Below are positions 35,629 through 59,465 of a stretch of DNA of 64,000 nucleotides, piece by piece. Within the stretch, counting starts at the first letter, position 1. Every line of letters begins with the position of its first letter. The DNA is from Arthrobacter sp. NicSoilC5 (GTDB taxonomy: Bacteria > Actinomycetota > Actinomycetes > Actinomycetales > Micrococcaceae). The DNA is taken from contig NZ_AP024660.1 in the NCBI RefSeq assembly GCF_019977395.1, positions 1,922,001 through 1,986,000 of the forward strand. Direction: 5' to 3'. A program made the position numbers and the translations under genes. A model generated the notes under the pieces. The model was not told the DNA's origin. It ran no database searches and saw only the letters and a program-made list of their open reading frames with translations.

Positions 35629-37200
35629 TCACGGGTAATCTGTATTTTGATCTAATCTCGCCGCTGCTGGAAATCGACTTTTGCGATTCGTCTCATCATA
35701 ATTAGCCCAAGCATTCAAATCGGCATCGGATCGAGATTTTTCACCTCTCTTCTTGGGAAGCGCAGGGTTTGAAGATGCGTCATCTTTCGAGTAGTAAGTG
35801 TAGGAATAGGAATCAGGGCCTTTTCCAGGCAGTCGATTTAACACCAGACCCAAAACGTTAGCACCGACTAGGTCGAGTGATTTGAGGGATTTCTGAAGGT
35901 CTTGTCGCCTTATTCGCTGCGAGCCAACCACGACTGCGACCCCACCCACATGTTGAGCAAGGACGGCAGCATCGGTCACCGGAAGGAGCGGAGGGGCGTC
36001 GATGATGACGGTATCGAATGCGTCCTCAAGGCCTTGAATGAGCCGTCGCATCTCTTCTGATCCCAGAAGTTCGCTGGGATTGGGAGGGATGCGTCCCGAC
36101 GTCAATACGTAGAGATTGTCTGTACCCCACGAATGCAGAAGTTCATTCACGTCTGCCATGCCGACAAGAGCAGTCGTCAAACCGGCTGTTGCATCGAGGC
36201 CAAGATACTCGCCGACCATCGGCCGACGAAGGTCCGCATCGATCAGACACACCGAGTGGCCGGCCTGCGCCAATGCGATTGCCAAGTTTATTGCCGTCGT
36301 GCTCTTTCCCTCCCCCGGAAGAGATGAACTGACCAAGACAGTCTTGGCATGACCGGTGATATTGGCGAACTGCAAGTTTGTCCGAAGCTGGCGATACGAC
36401 TCAGCTCGACGGCTGTGTGGAGGCGACTGAGTAAGTAGCGGCCTTCTCGTTGCGTCCGGATCGAAAGCAATTCCGCCGAGAATTGGCAGCGTAGTTATCT
36501 CCAGGACATCAGATTCACCACGCACCTTTGTGTCAAGGGCCTTCCGGCCGAGCGCTAGGGCCAAGCCACATACTAAGCCCATGCAAGATCCTAGAATCAG
36601 GTTTAACTTGGTATTTGGACTAGTTGGGTTTCCTGGAGGTGTGGCAGGCGTGATGACGGATAGCTTTACAGGTGACGCACCGCCTAATTTTGGCCTCTCT
36701 AGGTCATCAACAACCTTGATCAGACTGCTTGCTATAGCCTGCGCAACAGCGGCGGCTTGCACCGGTGAGTTGTCGAGAACCGAAATATTAATGACGACAG
36801 TATCTAAGTCAGTGCTTGCCTTCACCTGCTTCGCAAGTTGTTCGGCTGTAATCTCAAGTCCCAGTGAGTCGATGACTGGTTGAAGGACGACCGGCGTTGT
36901 AGCTGTCTTGACATAGGACTGGACGCGTCCTTGGCTGAATGTATTTCCTTGCTGTAGCTCTGTCACAGTTCCCGAACTCTGAATTGCCACGAACAGTTCT
37001 GTCTGAGCCGAGTAAGTCGGTTTGCTGAGGATCGAGAGAGCACCGCCTCCCAACAGACCAGCCAGCGTGACGGCTACAATCAGAGCCCAGCTACGTCGGA
37101 CAACGTGCAAGTAGTCTTTCAGGTCCAAGCTGGGTCCCCCCGTGTTATTCTCGCCGTCGCCGGTCGACGTCGAGTGATTCAAGTTATGCAGTCCACGCAA
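35629..37200 (-). CDS. Wzz-domain tyrosine autokinase (BY-kinase), copy 1
   Basis: 523 residues in one chain. The N-terminal Wzz part has two membrane helices around residues 35-55 and 205-225, with an extracellular section between. The kinase part has Walker A SSLPGEGKSTTAINLA, A' VCLIDADLRRPMVGEY and Walker B VIIDAPPLLPVTDA. A Tyr-rich stretch, SYSYTYYSKDD, near residue 455 is the likely autophosphorylation cluster, though about 60 more residues follow. It probably sets chain length and assembly of the polymer. The start may be TTG 37200. No cognate phosphatase is visible. It begins after an 800-base gap. Confidence 0.92.
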   Translation of the reverse strand: MRGLHNLNHSTSTGDGENNTGGPSLDLKDYLHVVRRSWALIVAVTLAGLLGGGALSILSKPTYSAQTELFVAIQSSGTVTELQQGNTFSQGRVQSYVKTATTPVVLQPVIDSLGLEITAEQLAKQVKASTDLDTVVINISVLDNSPVQAAAVAQAIASSLIKVVDDLERPKLGGASPVKLSVITPATPPGNPTSPNTKLNLILGSCMGLVCGLALALGRKALDTKVRGESDVLEITTLPILGGIAFDPDATRRPLLTQSPPHSRRAESYRQLRTNLQFANITGHAKTVLVSSSLPGEGKSTTAINLAIALAQAGHSVCLIDADLRRPMVGEYLGLDATAGLTTALVGMADVNELLHSWGTDNLYVLTSGRIPPNPSELLGSEEMRRLIQGLEDAFDTVIIDAPPLLPVTDAAVLAQHVGGVAVVVGSQRIRRQDLQKSLKSLDLVGANVLGLVLNRLPGKGPDSYSYTYYSKDDASSNPALPKKRGEKSRSDADLNAWANYDETNRKSRFPAAARLDQNTDYP

Positions 37201-52155: not shown

Positions 52156-52333
52156 GTCCGTAACAGCGCGGTTAACACTATGTAAACCGACTGGATTGAG
52201 GTTGGTCACAGCTAGTTATGGATGGTAACGTCTTTTTGGGATATCTATCCGTAGTTCCGTACATGGTCTCGTGCGGAGGGGGAATCTCCCCAAAATCGGG
52301 TACCACAACTTAAACGTCTCCGGGGGGACACAC

Positions 52334-52930
52334 ATGAAGAAGACTCTTGCTGCGCTCGCACTTGCCGGCTCCATCGCACTCGTCGGTTCCGCGCCTGCCA
52401 TGGCCGCAACCTACCCTGCCCTGCCGCCGCAGGCCGCCGTTTCGGACGGCACTGTTGGCCCGGGTGAAACCTTCGTCTTCCGCGGCCAGGGCTTCCTTGC
52501 CGGCGAAGGCCTTACCATCACCGTCACGCCGGGTCAGGCTCCCGCCTCCAACGGTGCCGGCCTGGGCCGCTCCGTCGGCGTCAAGATTCCTGTCTTCCAG
52601 GCACCGCAGACCCTGTCCGCAACGGCTGACGCTCAGGGCGCAGTCTCCCTGCCGATCTCCATCAGCGAAGCAGGCACCTACTCCCTGACCGCCACCGGCA
52701 ACACCTCCGGTGTCACCGTTGGTCCCGTCACCGTTACCGTGGCTGCCTCGCTGGCCAACACTGGCGGCAACGCTGCCGGCAGCGCTCCGCTGGCAAACAC
52801 CGGCTTGGCCAACACCGGCGCCGACTCCGGCCTGATCCTGTGGACCCTTGTGGGCGCAGGCGCACTGGCCGCCGGTGCAACCTCCGTTGTGGTGGTTCGC
52901 CGCCGCGCCAAGGCTGAGGTTTCCGCCTAA
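52334..52930 (+). CDS. secreted wall-anchored protein with LANTG motifs
   Basis: 198 residues. A signal peptide (ALALAGSIALVGSAPAMA) is followed by a small beta domain from SDGTVGPGETFVFRGQGF to VGPVTVTVAAS, similar to immunoglobulin-like export modules. The C-terminus has LANTG, repeated (ANTGG, PLANTGLANTGAD), then a hydrophobic helix and basic tail VVRRRAKAEVSA. This is the Leu-Ala-x-Thr-Gly type recognised by class E sortases in high-GC Gram-positives; no sortase is in the window. It is preceded by ACGGGGGGACACAC and followed by a very strong terminator. Confidence 0.85.
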   Translation: MKKTLAALALAGSIALVGSAPAMAATYPALPPQAAVSDGTVGPGETFVFRGQGFLAGEGLTITVTPGQAPASNGAGLGRSVGVKIPVFQAPQTLSATADAQGAVSLPISISEAGTYSLTATGNTSGVTVGPVTVTVAASLANTGGNAAGSAPLANTGLANTGADSGLILWTLVGAGALAAGATSVVVVRRRAKAEVSA

Positions 52931-53705: not shown

Positions 53706-54596
53706 TTACCCGATGAAGCCCTTCATCCAGGTTTTCAGGTCCTCACCGAATTCCACGCGCTCGGACGCGAGGGTGATGACGGCTTTGAGGTAGCTCAGCT
53801 TGTCACCCGTGTCGTAGCGACGGCCTTTGAAGACCACGCCGTACACGCCGGAGCCTTCGCCCTCGCCCGCTGCGAGGGTCTGCAACGCGTCGGTCAGCTG
53901 GATCTCGTTGCCGCGGCCCGGCTCGGTGGTCTCCAGGACGCTGAACACGTTGTGGTGCAGCACGTAGCGGCCGATGACGGCCAGGTTGGAAGGTGCTTCG
54001 GCAACGGCTGGCTTCTCCACCAAACTGTTGACGCGGACGTAGTCCTCGCCGTCCACCGGAGAGATGTCTGCACAGCCGTAAGCGCTGATCTGTGTGGGAT
54101 CAACCTCGATCAGGGCGATCACCGACCCCCCGGTCTTCTGTTGCACCTCCATCATGGTGCTCAGCAGGTCCTCTGCCTCGTCGATGAGGTCGTCACCCAG
54201 GAGCACGGCGAAGGGCTCGTCACCCACGTGCTGCTGGGCGCAGAGCACAGCGTGGCCCAGGCCTTTGGCCTCACCCTGGCGGACGTAGTGGATGGGGCCC
54301 AGATTGGAGGCGTACTCCACCAAGCCCAGCTTGTCCTTGTCGCCCTTGGCCTCCAGGGCTGCCTCCAGCCCCGGTTCGCGGTCGAAGTGATCCTCCAACG
54401 CGCGTTTGTTACGGCCAGTGATCATCAGCAGATCTGAGAGGCCAGCATTAATTGCTTCCTCCACCACATACTGAATGGCCGGGCGGTCAACCACCGGCAA
54501 CATTTCCTTCGGCATTGCCTTGGTGGCGGGCAGGAAGCGCGTTCCCAATCCGGCAGCAGGAATGACGGCTTTGGTTATAGCTTTCCCCGTAGTCAT
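53706..54596 (-). CDS. galU: UTP-glucose-1-phosphate uridylyltransferase
   Basis: 296 residues. It makes UDP-glucose from UTP and Glc-1-P in the cytoplasm, the precursor for Ugd and GalE. The nucleotide-binding AAGLGTRFLPATKAMPKEML and VDRPAIQYVVEEAINAG are unmistakable, and LLGDDLIDEAEDLLSTMMEV and NSLVEKPAVAEAPSNLAVIG follow in order. The length is standard. It is last in the minus-strand group and ends in a T-run terminator; 59 bases separate it from the nucleotidyltransferase. Confidence 0.96.
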   Translation of the reverse strand: MTTGKAITKAVIPAAGLGTRFLPATKAMPKEMLPVVDRPAIQYVVEEAINAGLSDLLMITGRNKRALEDHFDREPGLEAALEAKGDKDKLGLVEYASNLGPIHYVRQGEAKGLGHAVLCAQQHVGDEPFAVLLGDDLIDEAEDLLSTMMEVQQKTGGSVIALIEVDPTQISAYGCADISPVDGEDYVRVNSLVEKPAVAEAPSNLAVIGRYVLHHNVFSVLETTEPGRGNEIQLTDALQTLAAGEGEGSGVYGVVFKGRRYDTGDKLSYLKAVITLASERVEFGEDLKTWMKGFIG

Positions 54597-54655: not shown

Positions 54656-55570
54656 TCAATCACCGTTAGATCGGAGTTTCCTGAGGTCCCCAGTGAGGCG
54701 GGGCAGGGCGACTAGAAAGCGTACCCACCTGGCGCCATGTTGTCGGAAACGTCCCGGAAGGGACATATCCGCGTAAATGTTCGCGCCCAGGAGTACTTCT
54801 CTGCCGGGACGCACGGCGCGCCACAGTATGTTTGGTTTTTCCCCCCACGGTGCCTGGACGATGGCTATGATCCGAGCGCTCCCAGGCGCCTGCGCGGCAA
54901 CGCGGTTGCGCCACTCTCGGGAAGGCTCCGGCCATGCCGGGGCAATGGGTTCGGGCAGAAGACCCTCAAGGAAGGGCCTCACGGCCGCCAAGGCGCCGGT
55001 GGCTGAAGCGAGCTCCAGGAGCGCCTCTGCCTGGGAATCCCGTCGAGTCAGAACGGCCAAGTACTCAAGCTCCTGTCGGCATGCCGGCAGCTCATGCGAC
55101 CGCAGGGCGTGCAACGCCAGAAACAGGATGCCGAGAGCCTTCGTAGGGACCCTAAGCCGTTGCCCTGCGAGCTGCATGTGGACAGTGTTTGCCCACAGCG
55201 CCTCAAAACAGTCATAAGCGGTCCTTTCCATTCCGGGGAAGCGAAAGTGCACGTCGATACAGCAAGGCCACGCTGCGTGGTGGACAGTGACCGAGTGCTT
55301 CGGGAACGTCCTATCATCCGGGTCCGCCGGGCGTTGCCGCCATCCGCGTTCATGGAGCCCCTGCAGCAACTCCTCTACTTTGGAGGGGTCCACGAAAACG
55401 TCCACATCCGCAGAGATTTTGGCTTCTCGCAGCCCCTGGGTGACGCTTGCTGGCCCCTTGATGAAGAAGACCCGGATGCCCAGGCTGCCCGCCAGCCGCG
55501 CCACGAGGGCGTGGCCGAGGAGCACGCCCTCCGGAATCATGAGCTGGTTTTCGTGGCGGGCAGAAGTCAT
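54656..55570 (-). CDS. NTP_transf_5-type nucleotidyltransferase
   Basis: 304 residues from ATG 55570. The fold begins with FFIKGPASVTQGLREAKISA and the metal-binding acidic pair ADVDVFVD, then a separate Asp strand VHHAAWPCCIDVHFRFPG. The family (uncharacterised nucleotidyltransferase) is found in polysaccharide loci and in lasso-peptide and HprK/PqqD systems, and its substrate is unknown. Start lies seven bases after the Wzz/BY-kinase stop. The C-terminal 130 residues are helical with basic residues at the end. Confidence 0.75.
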   Translation of the reverse strand: MTSARHENQLMIPEGVLLGHALVARLAGSLGIRVFFIKGPASVTQGLREAKISADVDVFVDPSKVEELLQGLHERGWRQRPADPDDRTFPKHSVTVHHAAWPCCIDVHFRFPGMERTAYDCFEALWANTVHMQLAGQRLRVPTKALGILFLALHALRSHELPACRQELEYLAVLTRRDSQAEALLELASATGALAAVRPFLEGLLPEPIAPAWPEPSREWRNRVAAQAPGSARIIAIVQAPWGEKPNILWRAVRPGREVLLGANIYADMSLPGRFRQHGARWVRFLVALPRLTGDLRKLRSNGD

Positions 55571-55577
55571 GGCACGC

Positions 55578-57143
55578 CTAGATCCTGGCCCTGCGCCCGA
55601 CGAGGTCGGTTTCCACTGCGGCGCGACTGTCCGTTTCGGAAAAATTGTCAACCGCTTCCGGTTCCGCAGGCAACGGTGTGGGCCTCGAGGTATAAGTCCC
55701 GTAGTAAGAGTAGGCATCCGTGCCCTTGGTGGGAACGTAGTTGAGGACGGCTCCCAGGACGCGTCCCTTCACCTTTTCAAGGTTCCCCAAGGACTGGTCC
55801 AGCTGTTCTTGGGTGGTCCTGCCGGTGCGAATCACGAGGATGGCACCGTCGGCTGCCCGGGACAGGACGGCAGCATCGGTCACCGGAAGAAGCGGCGGTG
55901 CGTCGATGAGAACCACGGCATCTTTCGCCAAGGTGGCCAGCAAGTTCTTCATCGCCCGGGACCCAAGCAGTTCGCTGGGGTTGGGAGGGATCCGCCCCGA
56001 TCCCAACACCGAGAGGTTCGGCAGGGCTCCCCACGGCTGCAGGACGTCGGCCAGATTGGCCGTGCCCGTGAGCACATCGGTGACCCCAACACCGGGAACA
56101 AGGTTGAAAACGTCCACCAGCGTTGGCCGGCGGAGGTCGCCGTCGACCACCACGACGTTTTCACCCGCTGCTGCCATAGTTACTGCAAGATTGGCTGTCA
56201 CAGTCGATTTGCCCTCGGTCTGGAGCGAACTGGTGACCACGATAACCCGGGGTGGTTGGTCCACGTCCAGAAAGCTGAGGTTCGTACGCAGTTCGCGTAG
56301 AGCCTCAGCCATGGCGCCCCCGGCGTCATGCATCTGCGCCGCGGAGCCGGCGTCCACGATGGTGCTGTTGCCGTCCAGCCGGTGGTCCACCGGGAGGGTG
56401 CCGATGACGGGGACGCCGAACAGCCGTTCAATATCCCCAGCCCTGCGGATCCGGCGGTCCAGGTGGCGGCGGATCAGGGCATAGGCCACGCCATGGGCCA
56501 ACCCGGCGAGGGCGCCAAGGGCCAGATTGAGCTTAGTGTTAGGCGACGTGGGGCTGGCGGGCAGGACGGCTTTACCCAGTGGGAGGACACGGACAGCCGT
56601 GGCTGCACCGGCTTGTGTTCCGGCGTCGGGCGTTGTTGCGGCGCCGGAAACCGCCTCGGCGGAGGGCGCTGTCTCGATGGCCTCTACCTGCGCTGCAAGG
56701 CCATTCACCCAGGCGTCCGCTACCCGCTGGGCGGTTGCGGGATCAGTCGACTGTGCGGTGACCCTGATCTCTGCCGTGTCCAGCGGAACTTTGACGCTGA
56801 TGCTGCCGAGCAGGGCATCAGCAGTGGTCTTGAGGTCAAGCGCATGGATGACACGGTCAGCGACGAGCCGTGACTTTGCCACCGACTCGTAGTTCTTGAC
56901 CTTGGCCTTGGCCAGGCTGTCGCCGGCCAGCGCGAGGCTGACGTTGTCCGAGCCCGGCGTGACCACGATGCCGCTGGAATCGGAGGAGTAGACCTTTGGC
57001 TGGAGAGCAGTCCATCCCGCGGCTGCCAGGGTGGCCAGCAGGGTGAAGGCCACAATGGCCTTCCAGTACGTCCGGAGGACATTCAAATAGTCTGCCAGGT
57101 CCAGCCCTACGGATACCTCGGCCGGGGCTGCTGTTGTGCTCAT
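55578..57143 (-). CDS. Wzz-domain tyrosine autokinase (BY-kinase), copy 2
   Basis: 521 residues, starting after AGGAAACCACC. The Wzz half has two helices at about residues 30-50 and 205-225; the kinase half has SSLQTEGKSTVTANLAVTMA (Walker A), VVVVDGDLRRPTLVDVF (A') and VLIDAPPLLPVTDAAVL. The C-terminal Tyr cluster is SYYGTYTSRP near residue 480. Its linker between domains includes a segment with a Pro/Ala-rich insert (AVSGAATTPDAGTQ). It is distinct from the copy at 35.6 kb; codon use here is chromosome-like. Two kinases may serve different polymers. Confidence 0.92.
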   Translation of the reverse strand: MSTTAAPAEVSVGLDLADYLNVLRTYWKAIVAFTLLATLAAAGWTALQPKVYSSDSSGIVVTPGSDNVSLALAGDSLAKAKVKNYESVAKSRLVADRVIHALDLKTTADALLGSISVKVPLDTAEIRVTAQSTDPATAQRVADAWVNGLAAQVEAIETAPSAEAVSGAATTPDAGTQAGAATAVRVLPLGKAVLPASPTSPNTKLNLALGALAGLAHGVAYALIRRHLDRRIRRAGDIERLFGVPVIGTLPVDHRLDGNSTIVDAGSAAQMHDAGGAMAEALRELRTNLSFLDVDQPPRVIVVTSSLQTEGKSTVTANLAVTMAAAGENVVVVDGDLRRPTLVDVFNLVPGVGVTDVLTGTANLADVLQPWGALPNLSVLGSGRIPPNPSELLGSRAMKNLLATLAKDAVVLIDAPPLLPVTDAAVLSRAADGAILVIRTGRTTQEQLDQSLGNLEKVKGRVLGAVLNYVPTKGTDAYSYYGTYTSRPTPLPAEPEAVDNFSETDSRAAVETDLVGRRARI

Positions 57144-57188
57144 GGTGGTTTCCTAAACTCAAGTAATTGTGCTCGGCGTGCTGGAGAT

Positions 57189-58406
57189 TCAGCTGCCGGC
57201 CCGATCGAGAATGGACATAGCGACGAGTTGCTCTACCGCTCCCGCGATGGCGGCCCGGTAGCCTTCCGGTTTGCCGTGCACCCGTGCCACGTAATCAGTC
57301 AGCTGGCCCAGGCTGACAGGGCCCGCGCAGGCTTCCCAGACCGCCGGACCGATGCCGGACAGGCGCACGATCTGGTTGTCCAGCATGACGAGCAGGTCCC
57401 CGCCTATGGACACGGCATCCTGCGGAGCGGTGCGGTGAATGCTGCCAGCCGGCGTGCGCGGTTCCTCGGCACCCGGAACTACTACCGGTTCCCACTCCGC
57501 GTACGCCGCCGCTTGTGGGCTGAACAGGGGCTCCAGGGCAGCCGGGAGGTCTGCAGCCTCGCTGTAGGTCACCTGCCACACTCCCCCAACGCTTTGGATG
57601 AGGCGGCACAGCGACTGCAGGGGATCCACGACTTCTTTCTGCGAGGAGGAGTCCGGGATCAGGGCCAGCACCGCATCTGCCAATGGGACCCGCTCGAGCA
57701 CCGGGGTTACCGGACGGTCCCCACGGACCCGGTTCAGCAGCACGATCGACTGGATGTAGGGCGACGCCGGCGCCAACTGCAGCCCAAACTCGTCCGGAGA
57801 TGCCTGCCGTTTTGGAGAGCCTGCCTCCTGCTTCACGGACAGCGGTTTGGGATACGGAACCACGGAACCGTCCCAGGCAATGGCAACCGTCTCGTCCGAG
57901 ACGTAGCCATAGGTCCTGGCGAGTACAGAGGCCGCGGTGGTCTTCCCGGTTCCCGACCTGGCCACCAACGCCACCACTGCCCCGGTAGCTGGATGCGCGA
58001 CCCCGCAGGCGTGGAGCATGGTCAGCTCTCCGGCGTTAGCCATGATGGCGGCAACGGTAAGCCGGGACGTCAGGTTTTCTGCCAGCTCCTCGAAGGAGCC
58101 GGCTGCAAGTTGGAACGTTGCCGCAGGATGGTTGGCAGAGGTGCTGCAGACCGAGGCGGTGAAGCGGCTTCCCGTCGCGGGCTCCGGCGGCACTGGTGGC
58201 AGCTGAGGTTCCCCGGTACTGATGCACCGTGCCCATGCCGACCTCATACTGACGCGCTGCTGCCAGCTAACCCCGTGGCCCCAGCGGACCACGAACTGCT
58301 GCCCCAAAACATCCAAGGGCAGAAGATCACTGCCCTTTGCCAGTTCCTCGAGCAGGCGCTGCTCCCAGGCCAGCTCTACGCTTCCCGTGATTCCCGCTGC
58401 CATCAT
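57189..58406 (-). CDS. HprK-like P-loop kinase fused to a PqqD-like domain
   Basis: About 405 residues from ATG 58406 (58403 is equivalent), seven bases past the PqqD gene stop; the upstream frame extension overlaps that gene and is rejected. The Walker A is VARSGTGKTTAAS near residue 150, with YGYVSDETVAI as the acidic loop. These mark the HPr kinase/phosphorylase-related group (HprK-rel). The final 75 residues (LLVMLDNQIVRLSGIGPAVW, then LGQLTDYVARVHG) are a PqqD-like recognition domain fused on. A fusion of kinase and PqqD-like domains is notable. Its protein or sugar target is unknown. Confidence 0.75.
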   Translation of the reverse strand: MMAAGITGSVELAWEQRLLEELAKGSDLLPLDVLGQQFVVRWGHGVSWQQRVSMRSAWARCISTGEPQLPPVPPEPATGSRFTASVCSTSANHPAATFQLAAGSFEELAENLTSRLTVAAIMANAGELTMLHACGVAHPATGAVVALVARSGTGKTTAASVLARTYGYVSDETVAIAWDGSVVPYPKPLSVKQEAGSPKRQASPDEFGLQLAPASPYIQSIVLLNRVRGDRPVTPVLERVPLADAVLALIPDSSSQKEVVDPLQSLCRLIQSVGGVWQVTYSEAADLPAALEPLFSPQAAAYAEWEPVVVPGAEEPRTPAGSIHRTAPQDAVSIGGDLLVMLDNQIVRLSGIGPAVWEACAGPVSLGQLTDYVARVHGKPEGYRAAIAGAVEQLVAMSILDRAGS

Positions 58407-58410
58407 GCCG

Positions 58411-58704
58411 TTAGTGGGAAACGCCGCGGGCAGCCTCGATGAGACGCTGCTCTTCGAGGGTGGCAAGGAAGCTTTCCACCTGGGCCTGCATCTGCCCCGA
58501 TTGATCCTCGAAGGTTGCCTCAAGTTCGACGAGGATGTCCTTCTCACTGCGCTGTCCATCGATCAGGTCCCAGATCACAGCCGCAGTGCCCTCCAGGACC
58601 ACAGGCTGGGTTGCATCGAGGTGCAGCAGGGCAACACGGGACCGGGGCTTGGTGCAGACTTCTGCGACCAAGCCGCCACGTTTCCAGACCATGCTTGTGG
58701 TCAC
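58411..58704 (-). CDS. PqqD-family (RiPP-recognition-like) protein
   Basis: 97 residues, GTG start overlapping the upstream stop by four bases. A beta-hairpin, VALLHLDATQPVVLEGTAAV, leads to the hallmark helix IWDLIDGQRSEKDILVELEA, followed by a long C-terminal helix FLATLEEQRLIEAA. PqqD proteins bind substrate peptides and bring them to enzymes; here the enzyme is probably the HprK-like kinase directly downstream, which carries its own PqqD-like domain. No PqqE or radical SAM enzyme is near. Confidence 0.8.
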   Translation of the reverse strand: MTTSMVWKRGGLVAEVCTKPRSRVALLHLDATQPVVLEGTAAVIWDLIDGQRSEKDILVELEATFEDQSGQMQAQVESFLATLEEQRLIEAARGVSH

Positions 58705-59300
58705 CCAGCCTTCGGCAGAACGATCGTAGTGCTCGGGGCCGATGGCATTTGGGTGGAAATTCCGTTTTGGACGTAGGTAATCACGGTGGTGACCGTGTAA
58801 GTGCCTGAATCTTGTTTCTTGCCCGTGTAGCTGTAACCGCTGAAAGCAAAATCGAGAGTGGTGGCACCCGCGGGCAGCGTAGCGCTGAACTCGGCTGCGT
58901 TGCTCTGCGGCCGCGTGATGGCCAGAGTCGAAGCCCCTATGCTGACAGTCGAGAAGGAAATTGCAGGTGCAGCTGACGATGGCGGTGTGATCGTAAGTAC
59001 GACCCTGACCTGGCCGGTGACGCCGCTGAGGTTCTTGAGGCTCAGAAGAGCCGGTAATACCATTCCTGTCCGGTCATGGGCAGTACTTACCGTCGACGTC
59101 ATGTTCTGGGTACCGGAAGTAAACGAGCCAGTTGCCGGAGTTGCGGTAGGCGTGGGCGTTGGCCCGGATGCCGCAGCAGCAGGAGCAGCGATGGCGGTGG
59201 CAATGACCGGGAGCGACCAGGCGACCCCGGCGGCGACCCGGCGCCGACTTATGCCGCCGTTTTCTTCCTGACCGATTTCCTCGTTCAAAACCTCAGACAA
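58701..59300 (-). CDS. exported protein with twin-Arg signal, first gene of PqqD-HprK group
   Basis: 199 residues, TTG start preceded by TCTGGGGGCACAA. An acidic lead of 16 residues (MSEVLNEEIGQEENGG) precedes ISRRRVAAGVAWSLPVIATA, a twin-arginine-like signal ending near AAPAAAASG. The mature part is Thr/Ser-rich, then a beta domain with VRVVLTITPPS, STVSIGASTLAITRP and TTLDFAFSGYSYTGKKQD. It shares a four-base overlap with the PqqD gene. It might be a surface component or the substrate recognised by PqqD; both are inference. Confidence 0.65.
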   Translation of the reverse strand: MSEVLNEEIGQEENGGISRRRVAAGVAWSLPVIATAIAAPAAAASGPTPTPTATPATGSFTSGTQNMTSTVSTAHDRTGMVLPALLSLKNLSGVTGQVRVVLTITPPSSAAPAISFSTVSIGASTLAITRPQSNAAEFSATLPAGATTLDFAFSGYSYTGKKQDSGTYTVTTVITYVQNGISTQMPSAPSTTIVLPKAG

Positions 59301-59465
59301 TTGTGCCCCCAGAGTAGGTTTCCGGATGCGTCTGCCCAGGTGAGACCGGCAGGGCGCATCGACCGGTTTGCCCGGCTTCGCCTACTCTTGCGAACGCAAA
59401 TAAAGATTTCTGAAACGGCCTTGCAAGGTTTACTCAAGAATTCGGCAAGGCTTCATAAAGGAGAA

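Follow-up and report, generated by a model that had tools for sequence, protein, structure and literature searches.

We identified six genes on the minus strand of a 64,000-nucleotide stretch of the Arthrobacter sp. NicSoilC5 genome (hereafter the window) that encode, in order, an exported twin-arginine protein (EXP), a stand-alone PqqD, an HprK-like kinase with a PqqD-like tail (KIN), a bacterial tyrosine kinase (BY-kinase), an NTP_transf_5 protein (NTP5) and GalU (Table 1). Profile scans of the window recovered the gene set in the order and at the places first claimed for it, and the coordinates agree with the claimed four-base overlap of EXP and PqqD and seven-base gap between PqqD and KIN. 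A ribosome-binding GGGGG (59306-59310) lies ahead of the EXP start codon, and the source genome contains a single PF05402 match and one clear EXP. Based on comparisons with related genomes and known systems, we propose, with a probability of roughly 0.6, that EXP is modified by the module that encodes it. Such a module, apparently present in soil actinobacteria, would tag otherwise different secreted proteins via a shared export tag, probably by phosphorylation before export, and would resemble a peptide pathway recently described from Bacilli.

Table 1. Features of the operon in window coordinates (RRE, RiPP precursor peptide recognition element; Tat, twin-arginine translocation)
Feature	Proposed role	Coordinates	Strand	Basis
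EXP, protein with Tat-type signal	Proposed substrate	58701..59300	-	TTG start, 199 aa
27-residue conserved signal RRRVAAGVAWSLPVIATAIAAPAAAAS, EXP residues 19-45		59166..59246	-	Signal alignment
WSLPVI, EXP residues 28-33	Candidate RRE-binding motif WxxPx[IV]	59202..59219	-	Motif defined in PMC13381572
Ser45, predicted +1 after AxA, Trp+17	Proposed phosphorylation site	59166..59168	-	Signal conservation
Stand-alone PqqD	Proposed RRE	58411..58704	-	PF05402 48.5 bits (cut-off 23.4)
KIN	HprK-like kinase	57189..58403	-	TIGR04352 (weak); conserved catalytic residues
PqqD-like domain, KIN C-terminus, residues 343-395		57219..57377	-	Profile-profile comparison
BY-kinase, Wzz and CpsD type	Operon partner within the genus	55578..57143	-	TIGR01007 166 bits
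NTP5	May extend phosphate	54656..~55570	-	PF14907 48.3 bits (cut-off 31.2)
GalU	Sugar-nucleotide neighbour gene, outside the proposed pathway	53706..54596	-	TIGR01099 340.7 bits

Co-occurrence and gene order

The genus set comprised 150 genomes, 47 of them with KIN (E 1.4e-20 or better; matches at E 3e-6 or weaker were dropped as P-loop noise, which kept 47 genomes of 74). Genomes with both KIN and EXP-type genes, KIN only, EXP only and neither numbered 43, 4, 2 and 101 in the genus, 52, 2, 5 and 138 in the family (n = 197) and 18, 1, 6 and 369 in the class (n = 394; KIN at E < 1e-40). The class counts omit 13 KIN genomes with E 1e-8 to 1e-19, the inclusion of which gives 18, 14, 6 and 356. 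The corresponding Fisher values (2e-30, 4e-39 and 5e-25) ignore phylogeny and come from sets that partly share genomes, and the EXP profiles (A1 for genus, A4 for family and A5 for class) were partly built from genes beside KIN. Within the family, the 13 genera with KIN are the same 13 with EXP, among 32 genera. Because the genome search scored just part of the candidates in most sets, absences of KIN or EXP may be misses. With nearly all candidates scored, a recheck found intact KIN in none of the 13 EXP-only genomes; among 20 genomes with KIN only or weak KIN, one (G265) gained a clear EXP, changing the family counts to 53, 1, 5 and 138.

NTP5 and KIN occur together in 43 genus genomes, with KIN only in four and NTP5 only in three, and the four KIN genomes without NTP5 are the four without EXP. 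For these counts, 14 sub-cut-off PF14907 matches in open frames of 638-847 aa were dropped, leaving 46 of 57 genomes, and G047, G111, G114 and G118 were retained despite sub-cut-off scores. In type-B genomes such as G060, NTP5 lies tens of kilobases from KIN. A stand-alone PqqD was found in 38 of the 54 family KIN genomes versus 3 of the 143 others. The original prediction treated these genes as one conserved module, and the co-occurrence analysis bears it out: PqqD and the kinase do not mostly occur without EXP or NTP5. Of the KIN genomes, 43/47 in the genus and 52/54 in the family have EXP-type genes, and 43/47 in the genus have NTP5.

Gene order was compared in 40 stretches around genus KINs, 25 of which keep the order EXP-PqqD-KIN-BY-kinase-NTP5. 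Relative to the window, the best KINs of these 25 loci are 58-77% identical and their BY-kinases 78-88%, and EXP identity past the signal is mostly 30-50%. Of the 40, 37 have an EXP-type gene close to KIN (exceptions: L032, L038 and L044), and at six loci (L045-L050) PqqD and BY-kinase are ~5-8 kb distant. At locus L064 the module is duplicated: two kinase and BY-kinase sets stand in tandem, accompanied by two PqqDs and a single NTP5. Named KIN relatives are from Arthrobacter and Pseudarthrobacter, and the related-locus search of genome contigs returned three loci. By co-occurrence and order, the gene arrangement exceeds chance.

Outside the genus, EXP-type copies lie mostly away from KIN. Specifically, among twelve loci examined at the level of single genes, L150 alone has an EXP-type gene within 2.6 kb of KIN, and the kinases at L161-L163 are placed among unrelated genes. 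The family contains 203 EXP-type matches in 57 genomes, 45 of which have more than one (maximum 11), and genomes of the class set encode up to 14 such proteins for a single kinase. These distributions bear on the possibility that KIN acts in the polysaccharide pathway, on the BY-kinase or on a sugar or lipid precursor, with EXP a separate neighbouring surface protein. The BY-kinase, GalU and NTP5 in the operon and the polysaccharide genes around it would suit such a role, but EXP-type genes co-occur with KIN in the family without adjacency and several non-genus kinases have no BY-kinase match within 9 kb, making it distinctly unlikely. Of the two targets suggested at the outset, no result of this analysis points to the BY-kinase; EXP appears to be the likeliest substrate, given the co-occurrence described above and the shared signal described below.

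Adjacency recurs in the distant family f27, where all seven genomes with a weak KIN match in the class set (E 2e-11 to 2.5e-9) were inspected; a weak signal match was known beforehand in four of them and was lacking in three. The EXP-type gene, a separate PqqD (PF05402 60-66 bits in the two scanned) and the kinase adjoin one another in 7/7, and a family-2 glycosyltransferase-like open reading frame (ORF) follows in 4/7 (Pfam check in L250). This recurrence argues against lineage history alone, that is, co-inheritance of KIN and EXP-type genes in some clades with no joint function. The compared genomes are related, and the Fisher test is blind to this; however, patchy presence agrees genome by genome within the genus, and two genomes with EXP signals, G208 and G230, hold KIN-like fragments only, so that we regard joint descent without joint function as highly improbable. 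The two fragments (G208:C22:167944-168090, L257; G230:C4:201355-201567, L258) are perhaps decayed kinase genes.

The shared export signal

Outside the genus, the EXP-type proteins accompanying one kinase have nothing in common but a signal of 27 residues, RRxVVxGxAWSxPVIxxAxAxPAxAAS. We compared 111 distinct signals chosen by RR or RK, seven residues, WxxP and a core without charged or polar residues. W10 and P13 are present in 100%, as the selection requires, and P22 is likewise present in 100% without being required. Position 7 is G in 81%, position 15 is I, V or L in ~96% and position 26 is Ala in 90%. Position 27 (Trp+17) is Ser or Thr in 109 of 111, both exceptions coming from locus L164, and the residue after it is unconserved. 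EXP fits the Tat-substrate pattern in sequence, with a twin arginine, a hydrophobic stretch and an AxA site. Conservation reaches well past the RR and hydrophobic core, however, to W-x-x-P-x-[IVL], a second Pro and the Ser/Thr; to our knowledge, ordinary Tat signals require neither the WxxPx[IV] motif nor a Ser/Thr at Trp+17.

In f27, the RR-to-Trp spacing is 15 versus 9 elsewhere, and Trp+17 is Ser in 5/7. Since the former spacing shifts and the Ser is mostly kept, what is conserved is the distance between Trp and the hydroxyl residue. Signals were also read in genomes without intact KIN; one of these signals has Leu for Trp, and G020 (no A5 match) and G208 were excluded. In f11, the residue at Trp+17 or its equivalent is not Ser/Thr in 4/4, and in the signals from outside f11 it is Ser/Thr in 12/12.

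An acidic 16-residue lead ending in Gly-Gly, originally likened to a PqqD-recognised leader, is present ahead of the signal, but it is not the conserved element. The acidic stretch and the first G vary among relatives, and in 79 sequences conservation reaches 90% or more only at G16 (the second G), S2, E3 and L5. Because it differs from relative to relative and from subtype to subtype, we rejected the lead as a leader. A GAQ or GAH precedes MSEVLN in many relatives; GAQ was set aside as part of a leader because this segment falls partly within the ribosome-binding region ahead of the TTG start.

The shared signal is reminiscent of exosortase/PEP-CTERM sorting, in which one enzyme set acts on a short homologous signal carried by many otherwise unrelated proteins. 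The module differs in that its signal is N-terminal and Tat-like and in that it uses a kinase in place of a transpeptidase. The open literature, to which our search was confined (subscription papers and preprints lay outside it), yielded no paper on the actinobacterial module or its signal. NCBIfam scans of 23 EXP-type proteins gave no signal model and chance-level matches, Pfam gave no match for eight of ten, and sequence comparison of EXP with solved structures gave none below E 0.9. Among individual proteins with the same signal, L165:11483-13096 has a mature part of RCC1 repeats and that of L213:406-2076 is RCC1-like, under the Pfam cut-off. Another EXP-type protein (L042:10372-11325, 317 aa) seemingly contains, by eye, two copies of one domain in its mature part.

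PqqD and the kinase compared with known systems

The best PDB match of the window PqqD is 9X90_B (E 0.0086), followed by TbiB1 (0.23) and PqqD 3G2B (0.38). 9X90 is described as PbaB1, an RRE with a preference for Trp, which it grips through Gln79 and Glu75; its pocket is divided by Phe83 (PMC13381572). With pocket sites assigned by spacing on the ungapped match to 9X90, the Gln79-equivalent would be Q in 30, H in 4 and E in 1 of 35 PqqDs, the Phe83-equivalent F in 35/35, and the Glu75-equivalent mixed. The signal segment matches [Y/W]xxPx[L/V/I/F/A], the motif through which RREs bind the leaders of lasso peptides and of linear polyphosphorylated peptides (LPP) (PMC13381572).

Window KIN matches no Pfam kinase family, and its comparison with solved structures by sequence gave solely P-loop matches among the best 60 of 184. 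With PqqD, it forms the same protein-type pair as HPr-rel-A (kinase A, TIGR04352; PqqD, TIGR04353), to which similarity is weak: 25.8 bits against a cut-off of 200 for TIGR04352 and 21.9 against 35 for TIGR04353. Our literature search found no paper on an HPr-rel-A substrate. Three divergent kinases of f27 relatives, also beside EXP-type genes, reach 78-89 bits with TIGR04352 and E 2e-6 to 1e-4 with Hpr_kinase_C, under the cut-off in each case. His131, Lys154, Asp170 and Glu171 of KIN are invariant in an alignment with 15 relatives, and the catalytic motif is also kept in the f27 kinases. The KIN tail scores 18.9 bits with PF05402, under the Pfam cut-off, but its likeness to PqqD is backed by profile-profile comparison at 88% probability (E 2.9e-6), and tails of some relatives carry precomputed PF05402 labels. 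Of the HprK-like kinase with a fused second PqqD-like domain first described here, the fusion is supported and the HprK label of window KIN is weak.

Targets have been shown for HprK-like kinases paired with PqqD in the lasso-peptide (PMC9266682) and LPP (PMC13381572) pathways, which makes the earlier statement that such systems are known by annotation only, with no target, outdated. The paeninodin and pseudomycoidin lasso peptides have, like the module, an RRE (B1), an HprK-like kinase, which in their case phosphorylates Ser, and an NTP transferase, in their case linked to hexoses on the phosphate, and differ in that the Ser site is C-terminal (PMC9266682, PMC7533575). Neither a macrolactam synthetase nor a B2 peptidase is among the window genes scanned. 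A C-terminal Ser in the manner of lasso peptides was rejected as the modification site, as EXP C-termini differ.

The LPP systems of Bacillota, the nearest characterised counterpart of the module, comprise an RRE, an HprK-like kinase, an NTP transferase and a signal peptidase. LppK phosphorylates core Ser3 up to four times, and the RRE hands the precursor over to LppS, an SpI-like protein, which cuts unphosphorylated precursor poorly; LppN was without visible effect in the host used, and the biological role of LPP is unknown (PMC13381572). The module resembles LPP in its discrete PqqD-type RRE and NTP transferase, in a kinase whose HprK likeness is weak in the window and stronger in f27 relatives, in variable-length precursors with a conserved N-terminal region containing [Y/W]xxPx[hydrophobic], and in its polysaccharide locus. 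Both have a hydroxyl residue just past the cleavage site (predicted here), 18 residues from Tyr-16 to Ser3 in LPP and 17 from Trp to Ser in the window. A signal peptidase I-type protease accompanies the module only as a neighbour gene in 23/81 KIN loci. Features of LPP alone are a SipW-like archaeal-type signal peptidase I, an MsbA-like exporter and the consensus YxxPxVLxHQxIxFETxxS. The window operon genes include no such peptidase, no ABC transporter turned up in scans of nine window genes between 50 and 59 kb, and the 111 signals have WxxPx[IV] in place of the consensus, the remainder of which is missing. Features of the window alone are the twin-arginine signal, WxxP, whole proteins, an actinobacterial host and the extra PqqD-like domain on the kinase. 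LPP is described as restricted to Bacillota, and the words 'twin-arginine' and 'Tat' are absent from that paper (PMC13381572). Since the module would operate like LPP but, among the genes scanned, lacks its peptidase and exporter and does not carry the full consensus, it looks like a Tat-linked, whole-protein, actinobacterial variant of LPP and not a member.

Proposed pathway and neighbouring genes

We propose the following pathway for modification of EXP. The Tat-type signal of EXP has WSLPVI inside its hydrophobic core. In the cytoplasm, the stand-alone PqqD would act as a discrete RRE, binding WxxPx[IV] and handing the precursor to KIN, which, by analogy with LppK, would phosphorylate the Ser/Thr at Trp+17 (+1 of the predicted AxA site), perhaps repeatedly. 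The phosphate might then be extended by NTP5, perhaps with a sugar, as PsmN appears to do for pseudomycoidin (reviewed in PMC9266682). After Tat export, a signal peptidase would remove the signal, and the mature protein would sit at the cell surface with its N-terminus modified, in the context of an exopolysaccharide locus. Tat exports folded proteins and would therefore allow time for cytoplasmic modification, and an RRE on the hydrophobic core would mask the signal until KIN has acted. In other genera, one kinase may serve several proteins that have only the signal in common. We tentatively extend this to a less probable, genome-wide form of tagging, in which the signal peptide is the RRE leader, PqqD reads WxxPx[IV], KIN phosphorylates or polyphosphorylates the future N-terminal Ser, and NTP5 or glycosyltransferases extend this phosphate to give many different exported proteins an N-terminal phospho-glycan, possibly linking them to exopolysaccharide.

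Peptides are the known targets of RRE-guided modification. In the proposed pathway, whole exported proteins would be modified, their own export signal acting as leader, and, if so, one enzyme set would handle many cargoes in the manner of a sorting system. The actinobacterial trio of HprK, PqqD and NTP_transf_5 would gain a candidate substrate family and one candidate residue, and the proposal hints at a reason for such trios in polysaccharide loci.

In the 23 loci noted above, the signal peptidase I gene is no more than 5 kb from KIN, and in 12 no more than 1.3 kb, which suggests a processing partner. All three neighbouring peptidases scanned contain Pfam Peptidase_S26, and that of one relative is of bacterial type (TIGR02227 95.6 bits versus TIGR02228 17.7). 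These neighbours, and a signal that is itself the conserved element, would also fit a Tat escort, with PqqD and KIN as a proofreading chaperone whose ATP hydrolysis drives release without covalent change and with the Ser suiting the peptidase. Such an escort would leave NTP5 unexplained and is at odds with the invariant catalytic residues of KIN and with the phosphorylation of precursors by HprK-like kinases of similar sets (PMC13381572); we consider it unlikely.

Several observations weigh against modification of EXP as we propose it, in addition to the weak HprK assignment of window KIN. The fused domain of KIN has Ala at both the Gln79 and Phe83 sites in the alignment, and f27 PqqDs have Gly and Ala at these sites, yet f27 signals keep WxxP; the pocket argument is therefore limited to Arthrobacter-type stand-alone PqqDs. 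Among family KIN genomes, 16/54 have no stand-alone PqqD match, and at five genus loci with EXP and KIN (L039-L043) PqqD was not found nearby. Trp+17 is Val in 2/7 f27 signals, all seven of which have Ser at Trp+19, and outside f11 genomes without detected KIN keep Ser/Thr in 12/12 signals. LppK rejects Thr (PMC13381572), while ~3% of the signals here carry Thr at Trp+17. Locus comparison found no signal peptidase gene in the window operon or near it.

Past GalU, the opposite strand encodes VanZ-like, LPXTG-type and DUF4012 genes. The LPXTG-type protein (52331-52930; TIGR01167 19.9 bits, cut-off 15.9) adjoins GalU/VanZ in many genus loci with 47-94% identity. Farther out are many ORFs that by eye resemble glycosyltransferase or sugar-nucleotide genes, and the ORFs upstream of EXP resemble phenylacetate genes. 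Judged by eye, the polysaccharide region around the operon also contains a second BY-kinase-like ORF at 35629-37200 of the window.

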